From the IMG/VR virus record IMGVR_UViG_3300043313_002408, positions 1-21,528 of that record: a DNA stretch of 21,528 bases; one strand, given 5' to 3'. Under the pieces are notes generated by a model. The model did not search any database. It saw only the letters and a program-made list of their open reading frames with translations, and was not told where the DNA came from. The stretch is from a virus. Positions 15,617 through 21,528 of this stretch are shown one piece after another (the stretch's first letter is position 1; every line of letters begins with the position of its first letter). Position numbers and translations under genes: made by a program.

Positions 15617-16338
15617 CCGCCAAGGTGAAGCTCCCCGACGACATGCCCCGGGCGATGCGCAACCTGCCGCGCAACTCGGCTGGCTACCCGATCCCGTTCT
15701 TCGTCGAGCGCATCGATGGCATCCCTGACTTCCGGGTGATGAGTGGGCGCAACCTCAAGCGAGCGATCGCCGAAGGGCTGTGCTGGCTGTGCGGCGAACC
15801 GCTGCACCGGGCAGCCCGCGGCCAGCGTCTGCTCGGCACGTTCGTGGCCGGGCCGATGTGCCTGGTGAACAAGAACTCGGCTGAGCCGCCGAGCCATGAG
15901 GCGTGCGCCCGGTGGGCGGCGCGGGCCTGTCCGTTCCTGACCAACCCGAACAAGCTGCGCCGCGAGCATGGCGTCGAAGAGCTGGCCGAGAACGTCGCGG
16001 GCTTCTCCATCGACCGCAACCCGGGCGTCACCGCTCTGATCCACTGTGTCTCGTGGCAGCCGTACCGCAGCGAGCACGGCGGCAACGGGGTGCTGTTCTC
16101 GATGGGCCGCATCGATGCGGTCGACTGGATGTGCGAGGGACGCGAGGCCACCCAGGCCGAAGTGTTCGGTTCGATTGACTCGGGGCTGCCCGCGCTGATC
16201 GAGATGGCCGACATGGAAGGGTCAGCAGCACGCCGCGAGCTGGCGATGATGCTCGTCCGGGCGATCGCCTTCATCGGTGACCCCCTGCCGCGCTACGAGA
16301 ACGTGTGGAAGGTGCTCGACGGGGGGTGGGCGGCATGA
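15613..16338 (+). CDS. Conserved CWLCG-containing hypothetical protein
   Basis: A 241-residue protein. The sequence MRNLPRNSAGYPIPFFVERI, DGIPDFRVM, LCWLCGEPL, VAGPMCLVNKNSAEPPSHEA and ARACPFLTNP follows a widely distributed bacterial and phage family (R-LP-D--GYPVPWFV-----PDFRV, CWVCG, IGPMC-VN--SAEPPSH--CA-Y-A--CPFL). The invariant Cys and His probably bind zinc. The C-terminal half ends in helices. Function unknown. GTG 15613 overlaps the previous stop; ATG 15598 would extend it by 5 residues. Confidence 0.85.
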   Translation: MTAKVKLPDDMPRAMRNLPRNSAGYPIPFFVERIDGIPDFRVMSGRNLKRAIAEGLCWLCGEPLHRAARGQRLLGTFVAGPMCLVNKNSAEPPSHEACARWAARACPFLTNPNKLRREHGVEELAENVAGFSIDRNPGVTALIHCVSWQPYRSEHGGNGVLFSMGRIDAVDWMCEGREATQAEVFGSIDSGLPALIEMADMEGSAARRELAMMLVRAIAFIGDPLPRYENVWKVLDGGWAA

Positions 16339-17057
16339 ACCTGGAGGAGCAGGCAGTCAAGGCCGCAGCGGAGATCGACGCAGCGATGCGCCAGGTGCGC
16401 GATGCGGTGCCCAACTCGGATGCCGCATCGTGGAAGGTGACGGTCCCCGAGTACGACGCCCACGGCGTGACGATCGACCGGTTCGAGGTGACCCAGCGGG
16501 AGGCCAACTTCGACAAGCTGCGCGCCGCGATGAACCCGCAACGCAGCGACCGCTCGGTCGACGCCGGGACGTACACCAGGCTGACGGTCGACGGGACGCT
16601 GTGGATGACCGACACCCCGGCCGAGGTCGACGACCTGGGCCGGGTGGACGACCTGATGGCGATGTACCGCGGTGGGACGATGCTGATCGTCGGGCTGGGC
16701 CTCGGGCTGGTGCTCCACCGAGCGATCACTCGCCGCGGAATGGCTCGGATCGACGTGGTCGAGCGGGAGCTGCGGGTCATCGAGGCAGTCGGCCCGCACT
16801 ACCAGGAGCTGGCTGCCGAGCATGGCTGCAAGCTGACCATCCATTGCGCCGACATCCACGACTGGCGTCCCGAGCGTGGCTTGGACTGGACCATCGGGTT
16901 CTTCGACATCTGGGCGCACATCGACATGGACGACCGACCCGAGGTCGAGCGCCTGCGTCGCCGGTTCCGTCCGCGGATGGGTCACTTCGAGGCGTGGGCG
17001 CAAGATGAACGCAATGCCATGGCAGCCCGCATCCGCAGCGGAAGGGGGTTCTACTGA
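16335..17057 (+). CDS. SAM-dependent methyltransferase / spermidine-synthase-like protein
   Basis: A 240-residue protein. Residues ~115-195 contain TMLIVGLGLGLVLHRAITRR (G-x-G-x-G nucleotide loop after a strand), IDVVERELRVIEAVGPHY (acidic residue at the end of strand 2) and LTIHCADIHDWRP (acidic residue after strand 3), then WTIGFFDIWAHID. This is the Rossmann core of class I methyltransferases and spermidine synthases. The N-terminal ~100 residues (TIDRFEVTQREANFDKLRAA, SVDAGTYTRLTVDGTLWMTD) recall the beta domain and metabolite-binding strand seen before the Rossmann core in spermidine-synthase folds. Substrate unknown. ATGA overlap with the previous gene. Confidence 0.7.
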   Translation: MNLEEQAVKAAAEIDAAMRQVRDAVPNSDAASWKVTVPEYDAHGVTIDRFEVTQREANFDKLRAAMNPQRSDRSVDAGTYTRLTVDGTLWMTDTPAEVDDLGRVDDLMAMYRGGTMLIVGLGLGLVLHRAITRRGMARIDVVERELRVIEAVGPHYQELAAEHGCKLTIHCADIHDWRPERGLDWTIGFFDIWAHIDMDDRPEVERLRRRFRPRMGHFEAWAQDERNAMAARIRSGRGFY

Positions 17058-18813: not shown

Positions 18814-19335
18814 CTAGGCGTCACGGCCGATGATCACAGCGAGCTCGCTGGCCACGACCGAGGGGAGCTGGTTGCCGTCGATGCGGATGTGGTGGTGGCG
18901 GGACACGAGGTTCTCCACCTTGGCGAAGCGACCCTTGACCCATGTCCAGTTCTGCGCCTTGTCGTTGCGCGCCAGGGCGCGGTTGCGGGCGACCATGAAC
19001 GGCACGTCGATCCACACCAGCTCGACCGGGCCGACCGAGTGGCAGGCGTTGAGGAAGCCGTCGTAGGCCAGCCGGTCGCCTTCGCCGAGCAGCAGTGGCA
19101 CGGGCTGGGTGCGCACCCAGTCGATGGCCTTCGGGCCGATGCTCATCGACAGCGAGTCAGTGCCGCCCATCTCGACGCGAGCAGAACCGAGCTGGGCCGC
19201 GCCGGAATCGTAGAGCAGGTGGGGAACGGGCTCCTTCTGTGCCACGAGCAGGTGCCAGTCGAGCAGGTCGAGCGCTCCGGCCATCGCCGTCGACTTGCCG
19301 GAGCCGGGACAGCCGACGATGTAGACCGTGCGCAT
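18814..19335 (-). CDS. 5-hydroxymethyl-dU DNA kinase (P-loop)
   Basis: A 173-residue protein with Walker A GCPGSGKS (8-15), then EMGGTDSLSMSIGPKAIDWV (GTDSLSM at 58-64), LLLGEGDRLAYDGFL (GEGDRL 84-89) and WVKGRFAKVENL (132-143). GTD-LSM, EGDRL and W-KGR--KV-NL are the features I associate with phage P-loop kinases that phosphorylate 5-hydroxymethyluracil within DNA, the activation step of thymine hypermodification. ATG 19335 overlaps the upstream stop by one base, so it is co-expressed with the FAD gene. Ends at TAG, the last gene of the operon before the terminator. Confidence 0.85.
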   Translation of the reverse strand: MRTVYIVGCPGSGKSTAMAGALDLLDWHLLVAQKEPVPHLLYDSGAAQLGSARVEMGGTDSLSMSIGPKAIDWVRTQPVPLLLGEGDRLAYDGFLNACHSVGPVELVWIDVPFMVARNRALARNDKAQNWTWVKGRFAKVENLVSRHHHIRIDGNQLPSVVASELAVIIGRDA

Positions 19336-20093
19336 CAGAGCTTGGCTACCAGCTGCCTGGCGCGCGCTGGTGCCAATGAGTAGCCGACCCGACCGAAGCC
19401 GTCCAGGCTCCACAGTCCGTCCTCGAGATGGCGGATCACCCCGGGCTCGGACTCGGGCATCAGCCGCTGGGCGACGATGTGGCGCAGCAGACCTTCGGCC
19501 ACGGGCAGCTTGTCGAGAATCTGCGCCTGGCGCTTGCGGGCCAGTGCCTCGGTCGGGGCGACCGACGACCCCAGGCGGTTCCACACCCCGTCGTGATTGA
19601 CGCTGAACAGCAGCTGGCGCGGTGCGGCCAGGCGGCAGTACATCCCCGGCTCGTCGCCGTGTACCAGCGTCGTCACTCCCCAGGTCCGCTCGCCCGGCGA
19701 TGGTCCGGCCGCGCCGAGGCACAGCACCACCGCGTCGAAGCTGTTCGGTCGCTCGCCCTCCCAGGTCCACGGGGTGTCGGGCTCGACCAGGACGCGGTGT
19801 GGATCGACGGCGAAGAACTCACCTTGGCGGACGGACTCGCCGCTGCGGTCGTAGCGCTCGTAGAGGGCCACGTCGGCGGAGATCGCCCCGAGCTGGCTGT
19901 AGGTGTCCAAGGCGAAGTACGCATCGGTGCGGCCCTGGCCCTTGAACCACTTCGGGCTGACGACGCACAGCGCCGCCTGCGATGCCGGGCGGTGGTCCGG
20001 GGAGGCCATCACGGTCACGTCATGACCCGCTTGGCGGGCGAAGTGGGCGACCATCGAGCCGCCGATGCCCGCGCCGATGACCGCCACCCTCAT
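19335..20093 (-). CDS. FAD-dependent oxidoreductase/lyase of DNA hypermodification
   Basis: A 252-residue protein beginning MRVAVIGAGIGGSMVAHFAR, the dinucleotide-binding fold with G-x-G-x-x-G (7-12), and containing DAVVLCLGAAGPSP and a C-terminal GLWSLDGFGRVGYSLAPARA. The layout is like amino-acid oxidases of the DAAO class but shorter than the usual ~350 residues. Family knowledge: flavin-dependent lyases in thymine-hypermodifying phages act on amino-acid-substituted thymine, for glycine leaving an aminomethyl group. The placement between acetyltransferase and kinase genes supports that role here. ATG 20093 overlaps the upstream stop (ATGA). Confidence 0.8.
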   Translation of the reverse strand: MRVAVIGAGIGGSMVAHFARQAGHDVTVMASPDHRPASQAALCVVSPKWFKGQGRTDAYFALDTYSQLGAISADVALYERYDRSGESVRQGEFFAVDPHRVLVEPDTPWTWEGERPNSFDAVVLCLGAAGPSPGERTWGVTTLVHGDEPGMYCRLAAPRQLLFSVNHDGVWNRLGSSVAPTEALARKRQAQILDKLPVAEGLLRHIVAQRLMPESEPGVIRHLEDGLWSLDGFGRVGYSLAPARARQLVAKL

Positions 20094-20515
20094 GACTTCA
20101 GCGCCAGGTCGAAGATCGTCTCGCCGGAGCGGTTCTGGCGCTTGTCGATCGCCACGAAGCCCAAGTCGGCGTAGAAGTGCAGGCCCTGGGTGTTGCGCGC
20201 GTCGCACACCAGGCGCAGGTGGCGGTAGGGCGATCGCTTGAGCAGGTAAGCGATGAACTCGCGGCCGATGCCCTCGCGCTGGTGATCGGGGTGCACGCCG
20301 ATCTCGTAGATGCTCGTCCACGGCTTCTTGACGAGGTCCGGAGCGACGGCGAAACCGATGATCTCGCCGTCGCTCACCGCCAGTGCAACGGAGCCCTTAC
20401 GGTACAGCTCGTCGAGGTTGCGGATCCCGGAGTAGGTCCGCACGAACTTGCCGCACGCCTTGACCAGCACGTCGACGATCGGCTTGTCGGCAGGCGTGGC
20501 GGTGCGGAACGTCAC
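20090..20515 (-). CDS. GNAT acetyltransferase of DNA hypermodification
   Basis: A 141-residue protein with complete GNAT architecture: MTFRTATPADKPIV (strand 1), ALAVSDGEIIGFAVA, the acetyl-CoA loop IYEIGVHPDHQREGIGREFI (Q-R-x-x-G-x-G at 79-84) and motif B NTQGLHFYADLGF (108-120). GTG 20515 overlaps the stop of the transferase gene (GTGA) and its own stop overlaps the FAD gene (ATGA). In this setting the likely acceptor is the amine of aminomethyl-dU in DNA, giving an N-acetyl derivative. This is inferred from context; sequence alone cannot give GNAT specificity. Confidence 0.85.
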   Translation of the reverse strand: MTFRTATPADKPIVDVLVKACGKFVRTYSGIRNLDELYRKGSVALAVSDGEIIGFAVAPDLVKKPWTSIYEIGVHPDHQREGIGREFIAYLLKRSPYRHLRLVCDARNTQGLHFYADLGFVAIDKRQNRSGETIFDLALKS

Positions 20516-21393
20516 CACCAGTGCAGCGTCCCCTGCTCGACGTACAGCCGGTTCAGCTCCTTGCGTAGCCCGGTCCAGCCGCCGACCTCGCCCAGCCACA
20601 TCGGATCGAAGCTGTCGGCCCGCGCCGCCAGCACCAGCTCCTGCACGGTCCGTGGGCTGTGGCCGAGGTGGGCGAGCATCAGATCAATGTCGTGGCCGAG
20701 GTAGTAGTGGCCGCGCAGCGTGGAGTGCCAGTCGCACAGATGGGTCTCGACCTGCTCGACGGGATGCCCGGTCAACTCCACGAGCGTCTGGGTGTAGCCG
20801 TCGAGGATCCGCACGGTGCCCGGGTCGTGGCCCGCGTAGGTGCTCAGGATGGGGAACAGGTCGACCAGTCCCTGGCGCGGCCCGGTCGACCAGTCGTGCC
20901 CGGCATCGGTCGGGGTCAGCTCCCACCCGGCGACGCTCTGGAGCATCTCCCCGGTCTTGTACGCAGCCCAGCGCCCGTTGCCCCGGATCGTCCGCAGGCG
21001 GTCCTGGAGGATCAGCCAGCGCCGCTGTGGCGAGGGCTCGTCCACCGGCCACAGCGCCTGCTCCCACGAGCCGTAGCGCTTGTGGATCATCCCCAGCGCG
21101 GCGATGTGCTCGGCGAAGCGCGCCAGGGTGCGGTGGCTGCGCCGCTCGGTGCCGGTCGGACGACGCAGTTGGGTGTCGGTCAGCGCCTTGCCTGGACGCC
21201 AGCCGTCCTCCCACGTCCACAGCGCCGAGCCCAAGTCGTAGTAGGCGACGTACAGCAGGATCAGGCTGATGAACTCGTCATCGGTGTCGGTCAGCTTCGG
21301 GCCGAGGCGGGCCAGCACCGGGTACACCGGGTCGATGTCGCCCGAGGCGCTGTGCCAGTGGGCGAACTCCAAGAAGTCAGCCTCGCGCTCCAC
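20512..21393 (-). CDS. Amino-acid:DNA transferase (alpha-glutamyl/putrescinyl-thymine pyrophosphorylase type)
   Basis: A 293-residue protein without common catalytic motifs. GDIDPVYPVL (18-27), an all-helical middle, GNGRWAAYKTGEMLQSVAGW (138-157), LCDWHS (219-224) and GHYYLGHDIDLML (228-240) match my memory of the aGPT-pyrophosphorylase family: early GDIDP, later C-x-(F/W), and Y-x-G-x-DID near the end. These enzymes displace pyrophosphate from pyrophosphorylated 5-hydroxymethyl-dU in DNA with an amino acid or polyamine. The neighbours (hmU kinase, FAD enzyme, GNAT) are the known partners, which strengthens the call. GTG 21393 has GGAGGG upstream. Confidence 0.8.
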   Translation of the reverse strand: MEREADFLEFAHWHSASGDIDPVYPVLARLGPKLTDTDDEFISLILLYVAYYDLGSALWTWEDGWRPGKALTDTQLRRPTGTERRSHRTLARFAEHIAALGMIHKRYGSWEQALWPVDEPSPQRRWLILQDRLRTIRGNGRWAAYKTGEMLQSVAGWELTPTDAGHDWSTGPRQGLVDLFPILSTYAGHDPGTVRILDGYTQTLVELTGHPVEQVETHLCDWHSTLRGHYYLGHDIDLMLAHLGHSPRTVQELVLAARADSFDPMWLGEVGGWTGLRKELNRLYVEQGTLHWW

Positions 21394-21528
21394 GCTTCCG
21401 CCCTCCGGCGCGGTAGTCGGGCGCAGCGCGCAGCTCTTCGTCGTGGGTCGCTTGCAATTGCGCCCGACGCAACTCGTCGGCCGGGTCAGGTGAGCAGGCG
21501 CACATCGCGCTCTTGGCGTAGGTCACCG
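21377..21528 (-). CDS. C-terminal fragment of an upstream gene, unknown
   Basis: An open frame enters from the right edge and ends in TGA at 21377, overlapping the start of the transferase gene by 17 nt, the coupling seen throughout this operon. The 49 visible residues (YAKSAMCACSPDPADELRRA, QLQATHDEELRAAPDYRAGG, RKRGARG) are partly helical, with a basic end. A GTG at 21526 could be the true start. Function unknown; it may be another hypermodification gene or unrelated. Confidence 0.45.
   Translation of the reverse strand, partial: VTYAKSAMCACSPDPADELRRAQLQATHDEELRAAPDYRAGGRKRGARG

Follow-up and report, generated by a model that had tools for sequence, protein, structure and literature searches.

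Two described pathways of thymine hypermodification share enzymes with the locus analysed here. In the gp46-gp51 region of the Pseudomonas phage PaMx11, an amino acid:DNA transferase (ADDT), an N-alpha-glycinylthymidine (N-alpha-GlyT) FAD lyase, a GNAT acetyltransferase and a P-loop kinase are encoded in a single operon, in the order ADDT-FAD-GNAT-kinase, and a thymidylate-synthase-like precursor gene lies two genes downstream of the kinase. As the titles of the PDB entries suggest, the product of this pathway is 5-acetamidomethyl-dU. The 5-NedU pathway of phages M6 and Max includes an ADDT homologue together with radical-SAM and thymidylate-synthase-like genes. A further type of cassette is found in phages of actinobacteria: a TET-transferase-kinase set has been noted in Gordonia phage CaiB (PMC9302106), and in Rhodococcus phage Tonitrus the set has been termed a thymine hypermodification system (PMC11955845). 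The cassettes of CaiB, Tonitrus, Kozie (Microbacterium) and Phelemich (Mycobacterium) are all of the ParB-TET/JBP-ADDT-kinase type, with the order TET-ADDT-FAD-kinase in Phelemich, and none of the four contains a GNAT of the family described below. Mycobacterium phage Reprobate shares the gene order of Phelemich.

The sequence considered here (the window) is an entire IMG/VR record of 21,528 bases, a virus fragment representing an incomplete genome. Four coupled genes on its minus strand (18814–21393) probably constitute a post-replicative thymine hypermodification cassette, a TET-initiated form of the PaMx11 pathway in a likely actinobacterial phage. What is new, judging from the gene families, is the joining of PaMx11-type tailoring to a TET-type entry step. 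Since TET-transferase-kinase sets have already been published for CaiB (PMC9302106) and Tonitrus (PMC11955845), this combination is a variant rather than a new system, and the novelty for actinophages that the initial annotation claimed was over-stated. No earlier report of an acetyltransferase combined with TET was found in the literature searched, the scope of which did not extend to the primary papers on thymidine hypermodification and PaMx11 structures or to the 2013 TET survey.

Cassette layout and tailoring enzymes

The cassette opens with the ADDT gene (20512–21393; 293 aa, aGPT-Pplase2 type; PF18724, E=6.9e-16), which starts with GTG and is preceded at a distance of 7 nt by a Shine-Dalgarno-like GGAGGG (21401–21406, minus strand). 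It is followed on the same strand by genes for a GNAT N-acetyltransferase (20090–20515; 141 aa; PF00583, Acetyltransf_1, E=3e-12), an FAD-dependent lyase/oxidase (19335–20093; 252 aa; DAO, E=2e-7) and a P-loop nucleotide kinase (18814–19335; 173 aa; Ploopntkinase3, PF18751, E=1e-26). All junctions overlap (GTGA for ADDT/GNAT, ATGA for GNAT/FAD and TGATG for FAD/kinase), so that the ADDT and the PF18751 kinase belong to one coupled operon. The four frames are intact and keep their conserved motifs, and when the genes are compared with those of L006 (see below), a relative in which they are arranged alike, codon position 2 is more conserved than position 3. As a set, the four family matches are far beyond chance. 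The initial annotation had thus correctly delineated four coupled genes in the order transferase-GNAT-FAD-kinase, including the lengths of 293 and 173 aa for the first and the last protein, and overlooked a fifth gene end at 21526–21377, whose 49 codons and stop overlap the ADDT start.

Both enzymes that would handle the amino acid resemble their PaMx11 counterparts in fold. An AlphaFold model of the ADDT (pLDDT 94) was compared with 350,542 PDB chains using Foldseek; the top matches were 8z2m (the best, E=1e-5) and 8z2n, representing PaMx11 gp46, the 5-phosphomethyl-dU (5-PmdU) glycinyltransferase, with a TM-score of about 0.6 at about 20% identity. Overall, the ADDT is 20–24% identical to the characterised glycine enzymes, and the homologue from M6/Max is about 24% identical to it. 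The protein is predicted to exchange the phosphate of 5-phosphomethyl-dU for glycine. The flavoenzyme model (pLDDT 93) gave its top fold matches, in the same set of PDB chains, to 8z79 and 8z2o (E=1e-14), the N-alpha-GlyT FAD lyase gp47 of PaMx11, with a TM-score of about 0.77 at about 20% identity, and a sequence search of the PDB retrieved the same two entries (E=7e-6). NCBIfam profiles for glycine oxidase ThiO and for the C-terminal FAD domain of MnmC match it weakly; MnmC is an enzyme that converts carboxymethylaminomethyl-uridine (cmnm5U) into aminomethyl-uridine in tRNA. By analogy, the flavoenzyme is predicted to cut the N-linked glycine back to 5-aminomethyl-dU, an MnmC-like reaction that would here take place on DNA. 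The two proteins share the fold and probably the chemistry of the PaMx11 enzymes, of which they are not close orthologues; at about 20% identity, amino acid specificity is not readable from the sequence.

The GNAT superfamily is huge, which is why family specificity matters for the third enzyme. In a tblastn search of phage sequences with the window GNAT, 15 of the 16 matched records were Pseudomonas phages of the PaMx11/Ab18/Epa5 kind, the remaining one being a Salmonella chromosome record. In the operons of PaMx11 and Ab18 the GNAT gene comes after the FAD gene, whereas in the window it precedes it. The protein is predicted to acetylate the 5-aminomethyl group. The fold search, the PDB sequence search and the phage tblastn therefore agree on a PaMx11-type transferase, flavin lyase and acetyltransferase, and the earlier proposal of a base hypermodification cassette is confirmed to this extent.

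Kinase and entry step

The kinase has an intact Walker A motif (GCPGSGKST). It had been called an hmU DNA kinase, and the two terminal proteins of the cassette had been expected to match the aGPT-Pplase and HMUDK families; the 293-aa protein does match PF18724, and the 173-aa protein is indeed a P-loop nucleotide kinase, but of family PF18751 and not of the characterised HMUDK family (PF18748 with the helical partner PF18723), so that the label went too far. PaMx11, unlike the window, encodes the HMUDK helical protein. In relatives of the window the PF18751 kinase accompanies TET/JBP, and in mycobacteriophages it is found also without ADDT: Adawi encodes it with TET and without ADDT, and Chah encodes it although neither end of its genome shows a TET gene. 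Phosphorylation of 5-hydroxymethyl-dU in DNA is accordingly predicted from the company the gene keeps, not from membership in HMUDK. A PHROG label of terminase small subunit was rejected for this protein, since Pfam identifies it as a nucleotide kinase. Similar labels are found in three mycobacteriophage records (L001, L053 and L054), in which gp2 is annotated as queuine tRNA-ribosyltransferase (by Pfam it is Tet_JBP, with no transglycosylase family) and the kinase that follows it as terminase small subunit or adenylate kinase.

The gene that adjoins the ADDT on the right runs off the record, so that the window holds only its last 49 codons and stop (21377–21526, minus strand), and the catalytic residues lie outside. 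The edge peptide VTYAKSAMCACSPDPADELRRAQLQATHDEELR aligns without gaps over 33 residues with VSYSKTAMCRCAPKRGDEVRRAALAATRAEDNR, the C-terminus of the TET protein of L006, with a score of 94; none of 20,000 shuffles reached this value, the best scoring 62. When compared with a TET profile that included L006, the edge ORF was the best of the 369 ORFs of the window (E=0.001); with L006 left out of the profile its match was weak (E=0.13, 6.4 bits), and 2 of 3,650 scored shuffles were equally good. Global alignment misplaced the peptide within the TET family, and its placement was settled by local alignment and the profile. The identification therefore rests on one close relative and synteny, and the gene seems to encode a TET/JBP-type 2OG-Fe(II) dioxygenase, which would make 5-hydroxymethyl-dU on finished DNA. 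If the record were circular, the other half of the gene could be located at its left end; inspection of the ORFs there led us to reject this idea.

A dUMP hydroxymethylase gene had been predicted nearby, to be sought to the right of the window; the gene that adjoins the cassette on that side is the apparent TET/JBP-type one. The thymidylate-synthase-like family PF00303 was not found in the window, nor in 15 TET-type records, four complete isolate genomes among them, and was present in an M6-like control. In the same way, 13 TET-type records lacked HMUDK_hel (PF18723), which both Pseudomonas controls contained; Tet_JBP showed the reverse distribution, being detected in six TET-type records and in neither of these controls. 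PaMx11 and M6-like phages possess thymidylate-synthase-like genes and lack TET. Thus, 5-hydroxymethyl-dU seemingly enters by one of two mutually exclusive routes, one at the nucleotide level and the other via TET. Radical-SAM genes (PF04055), present in the M6-like control, were found neither in the window nor in its nearest relatives, as had been noted for the part of the sequence then in view; an M6-type product (5-aminoethyl-dU) was rejected for lack of this gene.

Relatives and probable host

IMG/VR searches with single window proteins (kinase, ADDT and GNAT) produced no matches; with an ADDT alignment as the query, 40 loci were collected. A TET-like gene is present in 36 of these and a GNAT in three, each of which also has a flavoenzyme-like gene in the cassette. 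Only one of the three GNATs is of the window's kind, that of the uncultured contig IMGVR_UViG_3300043478_000082 (L006); those of L030 and L040 are distantly similar. L006 has the same genes in the same order, with 45–54% protein identity in every gene, and the synteny extends beyond the cassette to further shared genes downstream on the opposite strand. The TET and ParB genes are complete in L006, giving the order ParB-TET-ADDT-GNAT-FAD-kinase; in the window, the position of ParB would fall beyond the end of the record. A window-type GNAT together with TET was encountered in no isolate of the phage collection searched.

The isolated actinophages resemble the window in their transferases (40–44% identical) and in having a PF18751 kinase; their hosts are actinobacteria, as is probable for the window phage, and their ADDT directly follows TET/JBP, an arrangement that the gene end at the right edge suggests for the window too. 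They differ in that the terminase adjoins the cassette or is near it, whereas it is about 14 kb away in the window (large terminase, 4726–3296, minus strand). Taking into account the hosts of the cassette relatives (Gordonia, Microbacterium, Rhodococcus and Mycobacterium) and the terminase, which is closest to those of Arthrobacter phages (46–48% identity), the host of the window phage is probably an actinobacterium. The window as a whole had no megablast match among 50,697 phage records.

Other variants of the cassette were seen as well. Between the ADDT and flavoenzyme genes of L007 (10900–12158), L016, L019 and L021 there are genes for an Amidoligase_2 (PF12224) and a low-molecular-weight phosphatase-like protein. 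An amidoligase is also present in L044, and similar amidoligases occur in phage Simon and in a Vibrio phage; this suggests that such cassettes represent a different tailoring branch. In Mycobacterium phage LilMcDreamy (L054, 855–4333) TET and ADDT precede a gene for an aspartyl/asparaginyl hydroxylase-like protein (PF05118), possibly another tailoring enzyme; next, in the position of the kinase, comes a gene annotated as terminase small subunit. A scan of bacterial genomes yielded two loci, of which one is in Brevibacterium and the other on a MAG contig of an actinomycete. On the Actinomycetes MAG contig L051 (1389–6480) there are genes for ParB, TET, a second ParB-like ORF, ADDT, an FAD2-like and a kinase-like protein, with a possible weak GNAT-like protein below the cut-off.

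Elsewhere in the window, a minus-strand gene close to the terminase (1648–2607) matches the beta-1,4-glycosyltransferase family phrog_13126 (E=8e-56) and contains TPR-like repeats, and a plus-strand gene (16305–17057) matches the methyltransferase family phrog_15480 (E=2e-30), with weak matches to Pfam methyltransferases. The left end of the record truncates a minus-strand gene (1–520) for a Gly/Pro-rich protein with a 30-bp repeat unit (GRPDQGLPG-like; repeat at 311–398).

Proposed pathway and alternative readings

Sequence and structure comparison shows to which families the enzymes belong and indicates that the edge ORF is the end of a TET gene; from this we infer substrates, order of steps, product and protective role as follows. 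A TET/JBP-type dioxygenase would oxidise thymine in DNA at its methyl group, giving 5-hydroxymethyl-dU, the hydroxymethyl group of which would be phosphorylated by the PF18751 kinase. In place of the phosphate, the ADDT would then attach an amino acid (glycine being the likeliest) through its amine, yielding N-alpha-glycinylthymidine, from which the flavoenzyme would oxidatively remove a two-carbon unit to leave 5-aminomethyl-dU, following the chemistry of MnmC on cmnm5U of tRNA. Acetylation of the amine by the GNAT would give 5-acetamidomethyl-dU, and virion DNA modified in this way may be shielded from host restriction. The product is well supported, though inferred, owing to the PaMx11-type ADDT, flavin lyase and GNAT matches. 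The initial annotation had proposed the same product, N-acetyl-aminomethyl-dU as in PaMx11; its three tailoring enzymes hold good, its hydroxymethylase is not supported and its kinase is not of the HMUDK family.

Two alternative readings concern the entry step and the target base. As in PaMx11, where the same three tailoring enzymes occur with a thymidylate-synthase-like gene two genes past the kinase, a phage dUMP hydroxymethylase encoded elsewhere in the genome might produce 5-hydroxymethyl-dUMP before replication and leave the four genes to act after it. The record is incomplete, so the absence of such a gene there proves little, but a TET/JBP-type gene end adjoins the transferase, and neither PF00303 nor the thymidylate-synthase-linked HMUDK_hel was found in the 15 and 13 TET-type relatives, respectively; we consider this reading improbable. 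A slim chance, no greater, is given to a cytosine target, TET oxidising 5-methylcytosine to 5-hydroxymethylcytosine and the cassette building acetylaminomethyl-cytosine. Some phage TETs act on 5mC, and C5-cytosine methyltransferase hits in four TET-type contigs (two of them over the cut-off) indicate that some TETs of the set may do so. Against this, the ADDT and FAD lyase are closest to thymidine hypermodification enzymes, and C5-methyltransferases (PF00145) are missing from the window and the L006 contig, nor is one encoded by the four complete isolates with ADDT (CaiB, Kozie, Tonitrus and Phelemich) or by two related isolates with the kinase; on these grounds thymine is favoured. Equally faint is the prospect that cytosine methylated by the host or by an unseen phage enzyme is converted via TET into 5-acetamidomethyl-cytosine at sites picked by the ParB-like protein; to our knowledge, this DNA base has not been described.

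The TET-initiated cassette might also have another end product, through a different amino acid, a different amine released by the flavoenzyme or another acyl group transferred by the GNAT. The identity of only 20–24% between the transferase and the characterised glycine enzymes leaves room for this, as do the sister cassettes with other tailoring genes, such as amidoligases, and the acyl choice of the GNAT, which is not readable from sequence. The flavoenzyme, however, is nearest to the glycine-specific lyase gp47 by fold and to glycine oxidase and MnmC by profile, and the GNAT to acetyltransferases of PaMx11-like phages; a different product is thus possible, if rather unlikely. That the genes are decayed, or serve host takeover instead of DNA modification, is scarcely credible in view of the four intact frames with overlapping starts and stops, the preserved motifs and a gene set and order conserved at 45–54% identity in a distant relative.

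If the favoured reading, TET-initiated synthesis of 5-acetamidomethyl-dU, is true, one tailoring line consisting of amino acid transfer, flavin trimming and acetylation is fed by two sources of 5-hydroxymethyl-dU: Pseudomonas phages make it at the nucleotide level, and actinophage-type viruses by having TET/JBP oxidise the DNA. Entry through TET would permit sequence-targeted rather than random replacement of thymine, and the enzymes would be candidates for putting aminomethyl or acetamidomethyl groups on thymine of existing DNA. The modified thymine would serve the phage as a disguise against bacterial DNA-cutting enzymes.
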